Shown in pieces: positions 38,629 through 46,109 of a DNA stretch of 64,000 nt. Position numbers and translations under genes: made by a program. Position 1 is the stretch's first letter. Each line of letters opens with the position of its first letter. The DNA is from Arthrobacter sp. Marseille-P9274 (GTDB lineage Bacteria > Actinomycetota > Actinomycetes > Actinomycetales > Micrococcaceae). The stretch lies in the NCBI RefSeq assembly GCF_946892675.1, contig NZ_CAMPOV010000001.1, forward strand, positions 2,578,033-2,642,032. The letters run 5' to 3'. The notes below the pieces were generated by a model. The model saw only the letters and a list, made by a program, of their open reading frames with translations, ran no database searches and was not told the DNA's origin.

Positions 38629-39264
38629 TCAGGATCGGCCGGCCAGACCCAGCCCCGCGAGGACAGCGTCCACCCCGAAGAGGAACGCCTCGTCGTCGTT
38701 GTTTCGCTCCGCCCCTTCCGGCAGCAGGCCGGCGGCGGCGAGGTCGGCATGCGTCTGCTCCTCCGCCACCGAGCCCAGGATGCAGTGGGTCAGCGTGCGC
38801 GCGCCCCAGGCCGCGTGCTGCGCGCTCAGCCCCCCGCGCTCGAGCAGCCGGCGCAGGGTGCTGATGGCCGGGAGCGCCTCCGGGGTCATCGCCTGCGCCA
38901 GCGAGACGACATCCGCACCGTCCCGCACGGACAGCAGGGCCGACCGGATGTCCAGGGCCAGCTGCCGGACGGGCTCACGGCCGTCGCCGGAGGACCCGGC
39001 CCCCGGAGTGCCGACGGCGCCGACGGCGCCGACGGCCTGGTCGTCGAGGCCGTCGGGACGGCCGCCGTCCGGCTCCGGCACGGCGGCCAGGATCTGCGCG
39101 GCCAGCACGCCCAGCAGTTCCTGCTTGTTCTTGACGTGCCAGTACAGCGCCCCGGGCTGCACGCCGAGGTCGCGGGCGAGCCGCCGCATCGACAGGTCTG
39201 CCAGTCCGTAGCTGCGCAGGATCTCCATCGCCGCGTCCTCGATCTGCCGGCGGGTCAGCGCCAT
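38629..39264 (-). CDS. bioQ: TetR family regulator, probable BioQ biotin-operon repressor
   Basis: A TetR protein of about 211 residues from the ATG at 39264. The helix-turn-helix is LTRRQIEDAAMEILRSYGLA, then SMRRLARDLGVQPGALYWHV and NKQELLGVLAAQI. The ligand domain is helical with a Gly/Asp-rich loop in the middle. It diverges from bioB, and the gap contains two copies of TGAAC-N3-GTTCA, close to the TGAAC-N3-GTTAC sites reported for BioQ in Corynebacterium. The ATG at 39264 follows AGGAGG by five bases; an ATG at 39327 with its own AGGAG would add 21 residues. Confidence 0.82.
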   Translation of the reverse strand: MALTRRQIEDAAMEILRSYGLADLSMRRLARDLGVQPGALYWHVKNKQELLGVLAAQILAAVPEPDGGRPDGLDDQAVGAVGAVGTPGAGSSGDGREPVRQLALDIRSALLSVRDGADVVSLAQAMTPEALPAISTLRRLLERGGLSAQHAAWGARTLTHCILGSVAEEQTHADLAAAGLLPEGAERNNDDEAFLFGVDAVLAGLGLAGRS

Positions 39265-39341
39265 CGGGTCCTCCTGTTGGGTCGTATCCGCCGCAGCGGC
39301 GGGCTCCAGTCCATCATGCCGCGTCATATTCGCCCCGCTCC

Positions 39342-39405
39342 TGAACACTGTTCAATATTGTCTTGACACGGCCGCTGGCCCTTCCAATACTTGAACGGTG
39401 TTCAA
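39342..39405. promoter_or_regulatory. bioB promoter with two BioQ-type operators
   Basis: The bioB promoter is TTGACA at 39363-39368, a 17-base spacer and AATACT at 39386-39391. Operator 1, TGAACACTGTTCA, is at 39342-39354, upstream of the -35 and near the bioQ start of transcription. Operator 2, TTGAACGGTGTTCAA, is at 39391-39405 and covers the predicted start of transcription and the GTG start codon of bioB. The start codon coincides with the predicted +1, so the bioB mRNA is probably leaderless. Confidence 0.75.
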
Positions 39406-40534
39406 TAACTTTAGCGACCTGGCCGCGAAACAGCTGGACGGCGGCACCCTGACCCGCGAGGAAGCCCTCGCCATCCTGCACTCGACGGACGACCAACTGC
39501 TCGACGTGGTGTCGGCCGCGGCCCGGCTCCGCCGCGCCCACTTCGCCAACACCGTCAAGGTGAACTACCTGGTGAACCTGAAGTCCGGCCTCTGCCCGGA
39601 GGACTGCACCTACTGTTCGCAGCGGCTGGGGTCGGCGGCCCAGATCCTCAAGTACACGTGGCTCAAGCCGGAGGAAGCGGCGGAGCAGGCGGCGACCGGC
39701 ATCCGCGCCGGCGCCTCGCGCGTCTGCCTGGTGGCCAGCGGCAAGGGGCCCACGGACCGGGACGTGGACCGGGTGGCCGGCATGGTGGAGGGCCTGAAGG
39801 ACGAGCACCCGCAGGTCGAGGTCTGCGCCTGCCTGGGCATCCTCAAGGACGGCCAGGCGGACCGGCTCAAGTCCGCCGGTGTCGACGCGTACAACCACAA
39901 CCTCAACACCAGCGAGTCCAACTACGCGGACATCTGCACCACGCATGAATACGCCGACCGGGTCCGCACCGTGGAACACGCCAAGGGCGCCGGGCTCTCC
40001 CCATGCTCCGGCCTGATCGTCGGCATGGGCGAGTCTGACGAGGAATTGATCGACGCGGTGTTCGCGCTGCGCGACCTCGACGCCGACTCCATCCCGGTCA
40101 ACTTCCTGATGCCGTTCGAGGGCACGCCGCTCGAGGGCACCTGGCTGCTCACCCCCGCGCACTGCCTGCGCATCCTCGCGCTGGTCCGCTTCGCCTGCCC
40201 GGACACGGAGCTGCGCATGGCCGGCGGCCGCGAAATGCACCTGCGCTCGCTCCAGCCGCTGGCGCTGCAGGTGGCCAACTCCCTCTTCCTCGGCGACTAC
40301 CTCACCAGCGAGGGGCAGGCCGCGAAGGCCGACCTCGAGATGATCTCGGACAACGGCTTCGTGGTGCTCGGCGCGGACAGTGCCGCGGTACCGGCGGAGG
40401 AGAAGCACGACGGCGGCGCGGCGGCTCCGGCGTCCGAGCCCGCCTCGGCAGCGGCGGACCTTGACGATCCAGCGGTCGCCCCGGTCACGATCCGCCGGCG
40501 CGGCGCCGGAACCCAGCTCGCACCGAACGCCTAG
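39398..40534 (+). CDS. bioB: Biotin synthase
   Basis: Radical-SAM enzyme that inserts sulfur into dethiobiotin. The [4Fe-4S] cysteines are in [16 protein letters not shown] (Cys66, Cys70, Cys73). Further conserved parts are [56 protein letters not shown] and [15 protein letters not shown]. The protein is 378 residues; the last 50 form an Ala/Pro/Glu-rich tail beyond the usual end. The start GTG at 39398 lies inside operator 2 and has no ribosome site, consistent with a leaderless message. First gene of the five-gene biotin operon. Confidence 0.96.
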
Positions 40535-40541
40535 GCGCGCC

Positions 40542-41921
40542 GTGGCAGTGCAGTCCCCCGCCGGCGTCGTTCCCGGCACCGTTCTTACCGCTACGCCGGC
40601 TTCCGGCGCCGAAACCATCCGGCGCGACCGCGGCCTGCTCTGGCACCCCTATGCCCCGCTGGACGGCCCGGCGCCCTACGCCGTCGAGGGCGCCGCCGGC
40701 GTCCGGCTGCGGCTGCAGGCGGACGACGGCGAGCGCTTCGAGGCCGTCGACGCGATGAGCTCGTGGTGGTCCATGATCCACGGCTACCGCAACCCGGTGC
40801 TGGACGAGGCGCTGCGGCGGCAGTCCGAGCGGTTCAGCCACGTCATGTTCGGCGGGCTGACGCACGAGCCGGCGGTGCGGCTGGCCGAGCAGCTGGTCCG
40901 GCTCGCACCGCAGCCGCTGGAGCACGTGTTCCTCGCCGACTCCGGCTCGGTCTCGGTGGAGGTGGCGCTCAAGCTCACCGTGCAGTACCAGGCGGCGACG
41001 GGGCGGCCGGAGCGGCAGCGCTTCCTCGCGCTGCGCGGCGGCTACCACGGTGACACCTTTGCGGCCATGAGCGTCTGCGATCCGGTGGACGGCATGCACT
41101 CGGCCTTTCCCGGGCTGGTGGCGCAGCAGGAGTTCCTGCCGCGTCCGCCCGCGGCGCGGTTGAATAACGACGGCGATCTGGTCGCCGATGCGGCGGAGGT
41201 GGCGGGCTGGATCGCCGCGCTCGAGGAGACCGTTGCCCGGCAGGCCGGCGGGCTCGCCGGAATCATCGTGGAGCCGGTCCTGCAGGGTGCCGGCGGCATG
41301 TTCGCCTACGCCCCGGAGTGCCTGCGTGCGGCGCGGCGGGTGGCGGACGAGCACGGCCTGCTGCTGGTCTTCGACGAGATCGCCACCGGCTTCGGCCGCA
41401 CGGGCCGGCTCTTCGCTGCGGAATGGGCCGGGGTCTCGCCGGACATCATGTGCGTGGGCAAGGCCCTGACCGGCGGCTACCTCACGCTGGCGGCCGTGCT
41501 CTGCTCCGCCCGGGTCGCCTCGGCCATCACGGACTCGGAGTTCCGGGCGCTGCTGCACGGGCCGACCTTCATGGGGAATCCGCTGGCCTGTGCGGTCGCC
41601 TCCGCATCGCTGGACCTGCTGGAGGCCAACGGGTGGCGGCAGCAGGTCCGCGGGATCGAGCAGAGCCTGGCCGCCGGGCTGGCCCCGGCCGCCGCACTGG
41701 ATTCCGTGCGCGAGGTGCGCGTGCTCGGCGCCGTCGGCGTGGTCCAGCTGGACGGGCCCGTGGACGTCTCCGCCCTCACCCGGGCCGCGCTGGAACGCGG
41801 CGTCTGGGTCCGCCCGTTCCGGGACTTGGTTTACACCATGCCGCCCTACATCTCCTCCGCGGCCGATGTCGCCGCCATCGGGGCCGGAATCACCGCCGCC
41901 ATTGCAGAGGTGCACGGCTGA
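40542..41921 (+). CDS. bioA: Adenosylmethionine-8-amino-7-oxononanoate aminotransferase
   Basis: PLP enzyme that converts KAPA to DAPA with SAM as amino donor. Motifs: [40 protein letters not shown] (a BioA hallmark), [48 protein letters not shown] and the PLP lysine in [15 protein letters not shown] choose the GTG at 40542, seven bases after the bioB stop; no clear ribosome site is seen. The stop shares a base with the bioF start. Confidence 0.95.
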
Positions 41922-43138
41922 TGGGCACCATGCAGCGGTGGCTGGAGGACCAGGCCCGGGTGCGGCGCCGGCGCGGGATCGTCCGGCAGGCGGCCGTCCG
42001 GACCGGCGCCGCGGGCCCGGCGCCCTCGGGTTCCGCCCCGCCCGAGGCCAGTCGGCCCACGGCCCGCCCGGTACTCGACCTCGCCTCCAACGACTACCTG
42101 GGCCTCTCGACGGACCCGCGGCTGAAGGCTGCGGCGATCGGGGCCATCGACCGCTACGGCACCGGCGCGCGGGCGTCTCGCGTGGTCACCGGGACCCTGC
42201 CCGTCCACGCCGAACTCGAGGCCGAACTGTGCCGGCTGACCGGGCAGCCGGCCGCCCTCGCCTTCTCCAGCGGCTACGCCGCGAACCTCGGCGTGCTGAC
42301 GGCCCTCGGCGGCCCGGGCACGCTGCTGCTCAGCGACGAGCACAGCCACGCCTCGCTGATCGATGCCGCCCGGCTCTCGCGTTCGCCGGTCGAAGTCTTC
42401 CCCCACGGGGACCTGGCCGCGCTGCGGACCATGCTGGCCGCGCGCACGCAGCCGCGCGCCGTCGTCGTTGTCGAGTCCATCTACTCGGTGCTCGGCGACG
42501 CCGCCGACCTGGCCGAAACTGCCCGGCTCTGCGCAGAGCACGACGCCCTGCTGGTGGTCGACGAGGCGCACGGGATCGGGGTTGCCGGCGGGGGCCGCGG
42601 CGCGGTGCATGCCGCAGGGCTGGCCGGAGCCGACCACGTGGTGCTCACGGCGACGCTGTCCAAGGCGCTCGGCGCCCAGGGCGGTGCCGTGCTGGGCTCC
42701 GGCGCGCTCCGCGGCCATCTGGTTAATACGGCCCGCAGCTTTATCTTCGACACCGGGCTGGCCCCGGCCTCGGCGGCCGCGGCGGCGGAGGCCTGCCGGA
42801 TCATCGCGGCCGAGCCGCAGCTGGCGGGCCGGGTCCTCTCGAACGCCGCCGTCCTGGCGCTGGGCTGCGGCGTCCCGCAGGCAGCCGGCGCGGTGCAGTC
42901 CGTCCCGGGCGGCGATCCGGAGCGCGCCGCCTCCATCGCGGCGGAGCTGGAGGCGGCCGGCGTGCTGGTGGGCTGCTTCCGGCCGCCCAGCGTGCCGGAC
43001 GGCATCTCGCGGCTGCGGCTGACCGCCCGCGCAGACTTCACCGCGGAGGAGACCAGCAGGGCCGCCGAGCTGGTCACGGCCCGGCTGGTCGCGGCCGGGC
43101 TGGCACCGGCGGTCCAGGCAGCCCAGGCGGTCCGATGA
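41921..43138 (+). CDS. bioF: 8-Amino-7-oxononanoate synthase
   Basis: PLP enzyme that condenses pimeloyl-ACP or pimeloyl-CoA with alanine to KAPA. Visible features are VLDLASNDYLGLSTDPRL, YGTGARASRVVTGTLPVHAELE, LAFSSGYAANLGVLTAL, DEHSHASLIDAARLS, VDEAHGIGVAGGGRGAV and the PLP lysine in TATLSKALGAQGGAVLG. The start shares a base with the bioA stop (TGATG), and the end overlaps the P450 start by four bases (ATGA). No bioC, bioH or bioW lies in the operon, so the pimeloyl source is not explained by these genes. Confidence 0.95.
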   Translation: MGTMQRWLEDQARVRRRRGIVRQAAVRTGAAGPAPSGSAPPEASRPTARPVLDLASNDYLGLSTDPRLKAAAIGAIDRYGTGARASRVVTGTLPVHAELEAELCRLTGQPAALAFSSGYAANLGVLTALGGPGTLLLSDEHSHASLIDAARLSRSPVEVFPHGDLAALRTMLAARTQPRAVVVVESIYSVLGDAADLAETARLCAEHDALLVVDEAHGIGVAGGGRGAVHAAGLAGADHVVLTATLSKALGAQGGAVLGSGALRGHLVNTARSFIFDTGLAPASAAAAAEACRIIAAEPQLAGRVLSNAAVLALGCGVPQAAGAVQSVPGGDPERAASIAAELEAAGVLVGCFRPPSVPDGISRLRLTARADFTAEETSRAAELVTARLVAAGLAPAVQAAQAVR

Positions 43139-44205
43139 ACTTCCACGTCGTCACCGATCCGGCGCAGGTCCGCGAGGTCATGCGCCGCACGGAAGATTTC
43201 CTCCCGACTAACGCGCTCACCGCCGTCGTTCCCTTGACCCCGGCAGCGCTGCGCATCCTCAGCCGCGCCCGCTTCGCGCTGCCGCCGGTGCTTGCCTCCG
43301 CGACCGGCGAGGCGCACCTGCGCGTGCGCCGCCTGGTCGCCGGCTTCTTCACCCCCGCGAAGGTCGCAGCGGTCACTCCCCGGGTGCGCGAGCTGGCGCA
43401 AAAGCGCTGCGCCGAGGCCGCAGCGGCGCTGCACGGCGGGCCGGTCGACCTGGCGGACGTGGTCGCCAAGCACGTCCCGCCCGTGGTGATGGCGGAGCTG
43501 ATCGGAACCGGCCTGCCGGATCTGGACACGCTGAAGCGCTGGAGCCGCGACTCGCTGGAACTGTTCTGGGGCTGGCCGGACGCCGACCGCCAGCCGGCGC
43601 TGGCCGGGAGCGCCGCGGAGTTCTACACCTGGCTCCGCGGCGAAGTCGCCGCCGCCCGGGGCACGGACACGCTGTTCGGCGTGCTGGATCGCGCGGGCCT
43701 CAAGCCCGCCGAAATCTGCTCGCTGGGCTACTTCCTGGTGATCGCCGGGCAGGAAACGACCGCCCAGCTGATCGCCACCACGCTCTACCGCACGCTGCAG
43801 CACCCGGACCGGTGGCAGCTGCTCGCGGCCGGCGGTTCCGCCCGGGACCTGGTTCGGCAGGTGCTCGCGACCGAATCATCGGTCCATACCTGGCGCCGCG
43901 CCGCCGCCCGCGCCACCGAGCTGGACGGCACCATGCTGCCCGCCGGAGCCGAGATCGTGCTGGAACTCAGCGGCCACCACGCACCCGACGCGGGTGGAAC
44001 GGCCTACTCCCTGGCGTTCGGCCACGGGCTGCACCGGTGCCTCGGCGCGAAGCTGGCCGAGCTGGAGACCACGCTGGTGCTCGAGGAGACGGCCCGCGCG
44101 CTGCCCAGGGTGCGGCTGCACGGGCGGGACCCCGCGTGGCTGCGCCTGCTGTCCTTCCAGAGCCCGCATACCGTCGTCGTCCGGCAGGAGCCCGAATCCC
44201 CATGA
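43135..44205 (+). CDS. Atypical cytochrome P450 within the biotin operon
   Basis: A 356-residue P450, shorter than the usual 400. The heme ligand is Cys302 in LAFGHGLHRCLGAKLAELE, and the I-helix has AGQETT (Glu207, Thr208). The N-terminal A-helix region is missing, and so is much of the meander before the heme loop. Where the near-universal K-helix ExxR should be, the protein reads Gln242-Val-Leu-Ala245. Its start overlaps the bioF stop and its stop overlaps the bioD start (ATGA twice), so it is co-made with the biotin enzymes. Bacillus BioI is a P450 that cleaves acyl-ACP to pimeloyl-ACP; a similar role here is a reasonable inference. No ferredoxin gene is nearby. Confidence 0.88.
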   Translation: MNFHVVTDPAQVREVMRRTEDFLPTNALTAVVPLTPAALRILSRARFALPPVLASATGEAHLRVRRLVAGFFTPAKVAAVTPRVRELAQKRCAEAAAALHGGPVDLADVVAKHVPPVVMAELIGTGLPDLDTLKRWSRDSLELFWGWPDADRQPALAGSAAEFYTWLRGEVAAARGTDTLFGVLDRAGLKPAEICSLGYFLVIAGQETTAQLIATTLYRTLQHPDRWQLLAAGGSARDLVRQVLATESSVHTWRRAAARATELDGTMLPAGAEIVLELSGHHAPDAGGTAYSLAFGHGLHRCLGAKLAELETTLVLEETARALPRVRLHGRDPAWLRLLSFQSPHTVVVRQEPESP

Positions 44206-45005
44206 CCATCCCTACACACTCCGCCGCACAGCCCCTCGACCCGGACATCGCCACCGGAATCCGGGGGCTGCCGCGCATCATCTTCGTCACGGGCACGGAC
44301 ACCGGCGTGGGCAAGACCAGGACGACGGCGGCGCTTGCCTCAGCCCTGTCCGGTTACCGGGACGGGACGGTGGCGGTCTACAAGCCGGCGCAGACGGGCG
44401 TGGCTCCGGATGAGCCCGGCGACATCGACGAGGTGCGCAGGCTCTCCGGCGTGGACCGGGTCTCGGAGGGCGTCCGGCTGCTCCACCCGATGGCCCCGCC
44501 CGCGGCCGCGCGCCGGGAAGGGGCGGTCCTGCCCGGCCTGGACGACCACGTCCGGCGCATCCGGGCCGAGGCCGAAACGGCCTCCCATGTGCTGGTCGAG
44601 GGCGCCGGCGGGCTGCTGGTCGAGCTGGACGGCGAAGGGCACACCCTGGCGGACCTGGCCGCCTGCTTCCCGGACGACTCGGCGACCATCGTCGTTGTCC
44701 GCAGCGGCCTGGGAACCCTCAACCACACGCTGCTCACGCTCGAGGCCCTGCGTACCCGAAAGCTGCCGGTGGCCGGCCTCGTGATCGGCTGCTGGCCGTC
44801 CGATCCCGAACCCGTTGAAACGGACAATCTCAAATTTTTCTACGGTCTTAATACCCCCTTCCTTGGTGCCGTACCGGCGGGAGCATCGTCCCTAGTCAAG
44901 GCCGACTTGCTCGATCAAGAACCAACTGTGGATGAACATAATGTGAATGTGACGTTGTCCACAACTGCCCGGATCCGAGTTGGTGGTTACCAAACCGTTA
45001 TGTAG
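44202..45005 (+). CDS. bioD: Dethiobiotin synthetase
   Basis: ATP-dependent enzyme that closes the ureido ring of dethiobiotin. The P-loop is FVTGTDTGVGKTRTTAALA near residue 28; VAVYKPAQTGV follows, then HVLVEGAGGLLVELDGEG and VVVRSGLGTLNHTLLTLEAL. At 267 residues it is longer than typical BioD (about 230). The last 35 codons are AT-richer and contain a DnaA-box-like motif and the promoter of the next gene, whose -10 includes the TAG stop. The C-terminal extension may thus be shaped by the DNA signals under it. Last gene of the biotin operon. Confidence 0.93.
   Translation: MTIPTHSAAQPLDPDIATGIRGLPRIIFVTGTDTGVGKTRTTAALASALSGYRDGTVAVYKPAQTGVAPDEPGDIDEVRRLSGVDRVSEGVRLLHPMAPPAAARREGAVLPGLDDHVRRIRAEAETASHVLVEGAGGLLVELDGEGHTLADLAACFPDDSATIVVVRSGLGTLNHTLLTLEALRTRKLPVAGLVIGCWPSDPEPVETDNLKFFYGLNTPFLGAVPAGASSLVKADLLDQEPTVDEHNVNVTLSTTARIRVGGYQTVM
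44927..44963. promoter_or_regulatory. DnaA-box-like pair in the bioD 3' end
   Basis: TTGTCCACA at 44955-44963 is an exact match to the actinobacterial DnaA box. In the opposite orientation, TGTGGATGA at 44927-44935 is one mismatch from the consensus. They lie just upstream of the promoter for the riboswitch-controlled gene. Two sites only, so binding is a guess. Confidence 0.35.
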
Positions 45006-45008: not shown

Positions 45009-45081
45009 TATCGAAGCGTCGGGCCCCTACCCGGCCAGCTCGAGTGGATTGCCTAACTCTGCCACCACAATTCGAGCCCCG

Positions 45082-45232
45082 TTCAGTAACCGCTGGCAGA
45101 GGCGGGGGACCCAAGTTTTTCGGGCTTCCATGAAGCCCTTGGGGTTAAGCCGAGGAGTACGTTCCGTACTGCTCCACGGCCGGGTGACTCCCATCCGAAC
45201 CCGACAGCTCACCTCGTAGGCATTGGGAGAGG
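45082..45232 (+). promoter_or_regulatory. c-di-AMP riboswitch (ydaO-yuaA class)
   Basis: The leader carries the conserved blocks of this class in order: GGCGGGGGACCCAAG near 45111, a variable hairpin, GGGGTTAAGCCGAGG near 45141, GGCCGGGTGACTCCC near 45178, and CCGAACCCGACAGCT then CACCTCGTAGGC ending near 45221. The ribosome site GGGAGAGG at 45225-45232 follows directly, so ligand binding could hide or expose it. In actinobacteria this class is known to precede cell-wall hydrolase genes such as rpf and NlpC/P60 genes, which is what follows here. Outer boundaries are approximate. Confidence 0.9.
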
Positions 45233-45239
45233 CACAACT

Positions 45240-46109
45240 GTGTTCACGAACAATTCGGCGCGCCACCGCGCTACTCCGGCCCGCAACTTCCTCATCAGCG
45301 AGGCCACCAAGTCCGTTTCCGCCAACGCTGGCAAGGTCGGCCGCGGCGCCGCCGTTGTCACCGCCGGTGCAGGCCTGATGCTCGGTGCGGGCATGCCCGC
45401 CGCCAACGCCGCAGGCAGCGCCCCCGACCACTCCGCCGCCTACGTGGCGCCGGCCGGTGCCGCCGAAGCCGCTGCTTCCGAGGCCCCCGCCACCTCCCAC
45501 ACCGTCAAGCCGGGCGACACCCTCGGTGCCATCGCCAGCCAGCACGGCGTGGCCCTGGAAGACGTCTTCGCCGCGAACGGCCTGGGCATGGATTCCGTCA
45601 TCTACCCCGGTGACGTTATCGCCCTCTCCGGTGCCGCCGCCGACGCCGCTCCGGCTGCCCCGGCCCCCGCCGCCGAGGCCCCCGCTGCCGAGGCTCCGGC
45701 CCCGCAGGTCGAGGCCGCCCCGGCCGGGAGCATGAACGTCTCCCTGGCCAGCGCCGAGATCTCCCCGGCTTCCGCCACCTCCGGCCTGGCCGGCATCGCC
45801 AAGTCGATGGTCGGCACCCCCTACGTCTGGGGCGGTAACACCCCGGCCGGCTGGGACTGCTCCGGCTTCACCAAGTGGGTCTACGCCCAGGCCGGAATCG
45901 ACCTGCCCCGCACCAGCCAGGCCCAGGCCGCTGCCCTGACCCCGACCAGCAACCCGAAGCCGGGCGACCTGGTGTCGCAGAACGGCGGAAGCCACATCGG
46001 CATCTACCTCGGCGGCGGCAAGATGGTCAGCGCCCTGAACCCGGGCGACGGCACCCTGGTCCACCCGACCAGCTGGATGAGCGTCGACGGCTACTACACC
46101 GCCGGCTAA
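45240..46109 (+). CDS. Secreted LysM and NlpC/P60 cell-wall endopeptidase
   Basis: A 289-residue exported protein. The N-terminus has a basic region and a hydrophobic core (AAVVTAGAGLMLGAGMPAANAA), a signal peptide with likely cleavage after about residue 58. LysM spans about residues 86-130 (HTVKPGDTLGAIASQHGV). An Ala/Pro/Glu linker follows. The NlpC/P60 domain, residues about 180-289, has the catalytic Cys207 in WDCSGFTKW and His252 in GGSHIGIYLGGG. It cleaves peptide stems of peptidoglycan. The start is GTG 45240, seven bases after GGGAGAGG. Under control of the c-di-AMP riboswitch and followed by a strong terminator. Confidence 0.93.
   Translation: MFTNNSARHRATPARNFLISEATKSVSANAGKVGRGAAVVTAGAGLMLGAGMPAANAAGSAPDHSAAYVAPAGAAEAAASEAPATSHTVKPGDTLGAIASQHGVALEDVFAANGLGMDSVIYPGDVIALSGAAADAAPAAPAPAAEAPAAEAPAPQVEAAPAGSMNVSLASAEISPASATSGLAGIAKSMVGTPYVWGGNTPAGWDCSGFTKWVYAQAGIDLPRTSQAQAAALTPTSNPKPGDLVSQNGGSHIGIYLGGGKMVSALNPGDGTLVHPTSWMSVDGYYTAG

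Follow-up and report, generated by a model that had tools for sequence, protein, structure and literature searches.

A cytochrome P450 in the biotin operon of an Arthrobacter as a proposed source of the pimeloyl thioester used by BioF

Introduction

The source of pimelate in bacteria that lack BioC-BioH, BioW and BioZ is an open question. In a biotin operon of Arthrobacter sp. Marseille-P9274, a cytochrome P450 gene lies between bioF and bioD. The P450 known from biotin synthesis is BioI, which is described as converting long-chain acyl-ACP to pimeloyl-ACP and, in B. subtilis, as a dispensable route parallel to BioW; in a paper from 2025 BioI is called unique to B. subtilis (PMC12915131). Among the titles and abstract openings listed in a literature search, with subscription journals mostly uncovered, none dealt with a biotin operon of actinobacteria that contains a P450, and a single paper, PMC13336041, was related. 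We therefore ask what the operon P450 is, how tightly it is tied to bioF, and whether it may supply the pimeloyl thioester that BioF consumes.

Results

Organisation of the operon

The window is the whole stretch of 64,000 nucleotides that was analysed, and its bioB, bioA, bioF, P450 and bioD genes run in one direction on the + strand, with a TetR gene divergent and upstream. This order, together with an ATGA overlap on each side of the P450 gene, had been proposed in a preliminary description of the locus and is confirmed by the frame coordinates. The features are as follows.

38629 to 39348, - strand: TetR-family regulator, BioQ-like by position and adjoining sites (PF02909 and PF00440 over cut-off)
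39342 to 39354, no strand: palindrome TGAACACTGTTCA at the start of the TetR gene, fitting the predicted BioQ site TGAAC-N3-GTTCA
39392 to 39404, no strand: palindrome TGAACGGTGTTCA, second BioQ-type site, overlapping the GTG start of bioB
39398 to 40534, + strand: bioB, biotin synthase (TIGR00433, 389 bits, cut-off 225)
40542 to 41921, + strand: bioA, DAPA aminotransferase (TIGR00508, 524.7 bits, cut-off 405)
41921 to 43138, + strand: bioF, KAPA synthase (TIGR00858 is the top family, 355.7 bits, under the cut-off of 426)
43135 to 44205, + strand: P450, proposed pimeloyl thioester source (PF00067, motif tables, model pLDDT 94.6)
44202 to 45005, + strand: bioD, dethiobiotin synthetase (TIGR00347, 113.8 bits, cut-off 83.3)

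BioB, BioA and BioD thus exceed their curated NCBIfam cut-offs, while BioF stays below its own; the genome has one strong BioF match, the second match being a 36% relative. The stop codon of bioF and the start codon of the P450 gene overlap as ATGA at 43135-43138, the stop codon of the P450 gene and the start codon of bioD overlap as ATGA at 44202-44205, and bioA and bioF share one base (TGATG, 41919-41923). Such ATGA overlaps suggest that translation of the P450 is coupled to that of its neighbours. Unlike the mkp clusters considered below, the operon has no genes for a redox partner, an ACP or a ketosynthase.

The end of bioD, 44830-45005, looks richer in A+T and poorly conserved, and alignments of bioD to its relatives, the nearest one excepted, end near residue 231-241 of 267. 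Directly past bioD there is a c-di-AMP riboswitch (RF00379, 61.9 bits, 45065-45236), followed at 45240-46109 by what appears by eye to be a LysM plus NlpC/P60-like protein.

TetR homologs adjoin the bio operons of several relatives as well. When the window is searched for TGAAC-N3-GTTCA with at most one mismatch, the two palindromes are the only matches, and both are exact. Shuffled sequence gives a mean of 0.49 matches per shuffle and two or more in 9 of 100 shuffles, so that the argument rests on the position of the sites and not on their number. The motif is the predicted BioQ site of actinobacteria according to PMC3398298, and the arrangement suggests that a BioQ-type repressor probably controls the operon. 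Just ahead of and across the GTG of bioB lie a TTGACA box and the second palindrome (39363-39404), and the bioB mRNA may be leaderless.

An atypical but conserved P450

The P450 frame encodes 356 amino acids from an ATG start. A longer N-terminus was considered and rejected, as there is no in-frame ATG, GTG or TTG before the upstream stop and near relatives share the start. The protein passes the Pfam p450 model PF00067 with 31.7 bits against a cut-off of 22.8; when all six frames of the genome were searched with PF00067 at an E value of 0.001, the operon P450 was not among the 18 matches listed. Its I-helix sequence AGQETT fits (A/G)GxxTT and its heme loop FGHGLHRCLG fits FxxGxxxCxG, with Cys302 as heme ligand position. 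The AlphaFold2 model is a confident, full P450 fold (pLDDT 94.6). The identification as a P450 made in the preliminary description stands, with the qualification that the protein is atypical: the ExxR motif is gone, and both the N-terminus and the meander, i.e., the stretch before the heme loop, are short. In comparison with solved relatives about 30-45 N-terminal residues are missing, residue 3 aligning to residue 35 of CreJ and residues 1-3 to residues 46-85 in other constructs.

The ExxR pair and an arginine of the meander form the triad of the P450 core. In the window P450, the K-helix has QVLA in place of ExxR. Across 47 aligned proteins, a hand-selected set that takes in the window P450 and a single outlier lying outside the clade (L107, which has ExxR), the motif is present in 13 and lost in 34; of these 34, 32 lack both of its residues and two still have one. 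All 47 keep Cys302, His61, Arg65, Trp253-Arg254-Arg255, His300, Gly205 and Thr208, of which His61, Arg65, Arg255 and His300 are what we take to be the residues that hold the heme propionates. The dN/dS ratio in the nearest pair is 0.13 for the P450 gene, 0.23 for bioF and, highest of the three, 0.48 for bioD, and for the P450 gene it lies between 0.10 and 0.26 across the pairs tried. A pseudogene was rejected on the low ratio and the invariant residues. Loss of ExxR is not in itself grounds to exclude a P450 either, since the ExxR of CYP157, a known P450 family of Streptomyces, is incomplete (PMC3599690). The two cases differ in that Glu is retained and Arg replaced by Trp in the CYP157 motifs quoted, whereas 32 of the 34 proteins here have neither residue, and in that the tie to biotin genes belongs to the operon P450 family.

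Across the tree, ExxR is kept in each of the 18 outgroup P450s, and the segment that runs from WRR up to the heme loop has 49-51 residues; the same combination is found in Glycomyces, in Streptantibioticus, in G517 of the phylum draw below and in a further Micrococcales genome. In Kribbella the stretch has 33 residues and ExxR is intact in two of three proteins. In Micrococcaceae the stretch has 33-40 residues, or 41-59 with a sequence that by eye is unlike an ordinary meander, and most of the proteins have lost ExxR; the single-frame forms G117, G134, G144 and G163 described below keep it. This pattern suggests that the meander may have been lost first and ExxR later.

Linkage of the P450 gene to bioF

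Of 295 genomes of the family, i.e., Micrococcaceae as judged by named relatives that nest among these genomes in the tree, 81 gave a P450 and 100 gave BioF; 80 have both, one the P450 only, 20 BioF only and 194 neither. About six candidates were scored per genome, and from this follows that the counts are possibly low. In 80 of the 80 genomes with both, the P450 gene lies within 815 bp of bioF, and on this linkage a chance neighbour of the bio genes was rejected; the gap is below 200 bp in 74 and 782-815 bp in six, with bioD in between in the three inspected of these six. The Fisher value for the linkage takes no account of the genomes' common ancestry and does not serve here as a probability. 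The one P450 without bioF (G005, 1 of 81) sits at a contig edge.

Ten of the 20 BioF-only genomes were inspected, and nine have no P450 either among the bio genes or next to them. The tenth, G064, has a P450-like stretch that is not contained in any one frame, and the bioF matches of G066, G168 and G287 from the same set look incomplete. At eight P450-less bio loci viewed by eye in script-made gene lists, no replacement gene was recognised locally. Behind one of the P450-less operons (G101, L169 13-3131) lie genes that by eye resemble a tripartite tricarboxylate transporter and that possibly encode a dicarboxylate (pimelate) importer; in another genome without the P450 (G124, L167 45-3466), the bio operon and its TetR gene adjoin genes that by eye are CoA-transferase-like and acyl-CoA dehydrogenase-like.

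A protein search of 59 relatives placed the P450 group (E at most 5e-75) in 17 genomes, with bioF or bioD adjoining in each. A scan of named genomes gave at least 80 loci with P450 relatives. At least one bio gene is present at each of the 19 loci L085-L103, the P450s of which are 43-69% identical to that of the window and come from Arthrobacter, Paenarthrobacter, Sinomonas, Paeniglutamicibacter, Kribbella and one further Micrococcales genome; at L090, a 6.7-kb contig, bioD is the only bio gene present. The four Glycomyces loci are divided: at two of them bioD, bioF and bioA fall within 7 kb, and the other two, one of which ends early, show no bio genes. L142 is a contig-edge fragment with 54% identity over 68 residues, and the remaining loci of the scan, with about 34% identity or lower, are without bio genes. 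There are two layouts, one with the P450 gene between bioF and bioD and one with it behind bioD, and the latter is accompanied by a different type of BioB (about 32-37% identical where seen).

The linkage can go as far as one reading frame. In at least eight genomes BioF and the P450 share a single stop-free frame: in G021, and in seven of nine genomes checked by script (G117, G134, G144, G163, G187, G254 and G308), the check finding no such frame in G183 and G315. BioF is also joined to a maker of pimeloyl thioester in the natural BioWF fusion (PMC9544090), with the difference that BioW is an ATP-dependent ligase and not a P450. The P450 gene is also found on plasmids. In Arthrobacter sp. FW306-05-C (L082 1-9524), two IS110 transposase genes enclose a bioB-A-F-D-P450 set; the plasmid that carries it is typed as conjugative, and bioC, bioH and bioW are absent from the 13 annotated features shown. 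Here biotin synthesis would be mobile cargo. A Paenarthrobacter plasmid (L083) carries a lone P450 of the group with no bio genes on the locus.

A separate clade, distinct from BioI

The bio-operon P450s form one clade of 36 rows with support 100/100, in which three rows (L083, L104 and L108) have no bio genes on the locus. When Streptomyces sequences are added, the clade has 42 rows and support 100/99, and it then includes six Streptomyces P450s without bioF nearby. In a draw of 396 genomes across the phylum, with five candidates scored in each, three reach at least 346 bits (G000, G017 and G517); in G517 about 2 kb separate the P450 gene from bioD, and bioF and bioB come next. The S. cattleyicolor P450 has a strong relative (E at most 2.6e-118) in 38 of 343 Streptomyces-type genomes (genus inferred), and in the 20 of these that were inspected bioF is nearby in five and not nearby in 15. 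Two of the five (L244 and L245) are full bio clusters, with bioA-D-B-P450 and bioF, surrounded by a ketosynthase, a 4HBT thioesterase and an ADH-type reductase-like gene.

A BioI ortholog was considered and rejected, since both the profile and the fold search of solved structures place CreJ and CYP116B ahead of BioI. Both by sequence and by fold the nearest solved structures are CreJ (5gwe, 5xjn) and the CYP116B heme domains, with fold matches of TM 0.85-0.90. In the sequence profile search, CreJ scores 260.6 bits against 148.6 for BioI, which is 28th among the matches listed, all of them solved structures; the fold match to BioI (CYP107H1) has TM 0.80-0.82, rank 14 and 20-21% identity. The window P450 shares with BioI the link to biotin synthesis and a gene inside the biotin operon, but BioI has 404 residues against 356. 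It differs from CreJ and CYP116B in that ExxR is intact in their aligned chains; CreJ has been solved with an alkylphenyl phosphate, according to the structure title, and full-length CYP116B chains have further domains.

Other routes to pimelate

The preliminary description named bioC, bioH and bioW as routes to be sought genome-wide. For BioC (TIGR02072, which could miss a mycobacterial Tam-type BioC), no genome is over the cut-off in sets of 59 and 31 genomes (G024 in both), the best score in the genome of the window being 61.3 bits against 184.95; among 14 control genomes, one exceeds it. For BioW (TIGR01204), again none of the 59 and none of the 31 is over the cut-off, while B. subtilis and M. 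jannaschii, which served as controls, both exceed it. The search covers BioC and BioW by model, BioH-type esterases being a class that sequence does not allow one to judge. The set of 31 takes in all 20 BioF-only genomes, which means that absence of BioC and BioW is not enough on its own to point to the P450, and that a bio operon can exist that by these models lacks all three. KAS III-type proteins (PF08545) give five matches in the genome of the window, one of them strong (97.8 bits).

Discussion

The reading that we favour, with a probability of about three in four, is that the operon P450 supplies the pimeloyl thioester used by BioF, and that it does so as a separate actinobacterial lineage, convergent with BioI. 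The preliminary description had suggested an actinobacterial pimeloyl source with BioI as the model; the source remains the best reading of the linkage, the single frames, the lack of BioC and BioW over cut-off and the mkp parallel, but membership in BioI is not supported. Against the reading count the BioF-positive genomes with no P450, the 15 of 20 Streptomyces relatives with bioF not nearby, the lone P450 on the L083 plasmid, the two Glycomyces loci that show no bio genes and the lack of redox partner, ACP and ketosynthase genes in the operon; BioI, too, is dispensable in B. subtilis. What is new is that the lineage is a separate one, that BioF and the P450 can share a single frame and that ExxR and the meander have been lost although the enzyme is conserved; the preliminary description included neither the loss of ExxR nor the pattern across the family.

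The data show the gene order, the linkage, the single frames, the motif losses, the purifying selection and the clade; the substrate, the chemistry, the contact with BioF and the regulation are proposed from them. In the proposed mechanism, the substrate would be a fatty acyl chain, most likely ACP-bound. Carbon 7 would be oxidised to the level of an acid, with the C7-C8 bond cut when the chain is longer, and the resulting pimeloyl-ACP would be passed to BioF. Given one operon with overlapping genes, the P450 likely acts beside BioF, with which it shares a frame in the genomes listed above. In the history of the lineage, shortening of the meander would have come first and loss of the ExxR pair, in most members, second, with the heme-holding and oxygen-activating residues kept throughout. 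The full claim, namely an actinobacterial P450 pimeloyl synthase of its own, of non-BioI descent and in direct contact with BioF, with the ExxR-meander triad dismantled and catalysis kept, we hold at slightly better than even odds.

The closest functional parallel found in print is MkpG of Streptomyces virginiae. According to PMC13336041, deletion of mkpC, of mkpD (BioF-like) or of mkpG (the P450) abolished alpha-methyl-KAPA, and the authors propose an oxidative cleavage as by BioI. Hence an actinobacterial P450 is required there, with a BioF-like enzyme, for a KAPA-type product. Two more of the five Streptomyces-type loci with bioF nearby (L248 and L250) contain an ACP, a ketosynthase, a BioF-like gene, an AMP ligase, a P450 of the present clade and a transporter-like gene, and by gene content they resemble mkp clusters; their P450s share the clade with the window P450, the tree being without the MkpG sequence itself. 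The P450 of L250 keeps ExxR and by eye has a thiolase-like frame ahead of it, a difference from mkp in that the gene at this place, MkpF, is called FabH-like in the paper. The mkp system further differs from the operon in that a 6-methyl-pimelate unit is made for an antimetabolite and in that ACP and ketosynthase are in the cluster.

To see what the parallel would imply, consider the two starters of the mkp pathway as they follow from valine and isoleucine chemistry. With an isobutyryl starter, the mkp P450 would convert a terminal methyl group to an acid; with a 2-methylbutyryl starter, one terminal carbon would be lost. With both starters it would act at C7, which is the position needed by a maker of pimeloyl-ACP, and C7 oxidation of an acyl-ACP is therefore proposed for the window P450.

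The same parallel can be turned around. The P450 might instead oxidise a biotin intermediate or make a methylated analogue, i.e., an antivitamin such as alpha-methyl-KAPA, with the operon as supply, and the nearest function found in print for a P450 beside a BioF-like enzyme does belong to an antimetabolite pathway (PMC13336041); some Streptomyces members of the clade lie outside bio clusters. The operon of the window, however, is a complete bioBAFD with BioQ-type sites ahead and no ACP or ketosynthase, the genome has one strong BioF beside the 36% relative, and a P450 without bioF occurs once among the 81 of the family, at a contig edge; an antimetabolite role is in our judgement unlikely. 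Nor do we give much weight to a catalytically dead P450 retained as a scaffold or regulator of BioF. The loss of ExxR in 34 of 47 proteins, an N-terminus about 30-45 residues short and at least eight single frames with BioF would fit such a helper, and P450-derived helper proteins are known (TIGR04515, for which the window P450 has 52.4 bits against a cut-off of 343). Against it, the heme cysteine, the expected propionate holders and the I-helix threonine are unchanged in all 47, dN/dS is 0.13 in the nearest pair and a full P450 fold is modelled with confidence, which makes a dead protein very improbable.

Pimelate could, finally, come from a BioC-BioH-like or BioZ-like route that is not recognised, with the P450 as an accessory or redundant enzyme. 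About 19 BioF-positive genomes are by model without P450, BioC and BioW, the genome of the window has the five PF08545 matches, and the mycobacterial BioC, among 72 BioC-like genes, was only lately assigned, to a Tam protein (PMC9302846). For a redundant gene, however, the linkage, the single frames and the purifying selection would be odd, and the FW306-05-C plasmid carries the P450 with bioB-A-F-D and with no bioC, bioH or bioW among the 13 features shown; we consider this route, too, highly doubtful as the explanation of the operon.

If the P450 is the supplier of the pimeloyl thioester, many actinobacteria would have an oxygen-dependent route to pimelate, and a BioF-P450 single chain would be one enzyme leading from acyl-ACP to KAPA. 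Such single chains make the idea testable with one purified protein, and the meander and ExxR, apparently lost step by step in a conserved enzyme, offer a natural experiment on the parts that a P450 requires.
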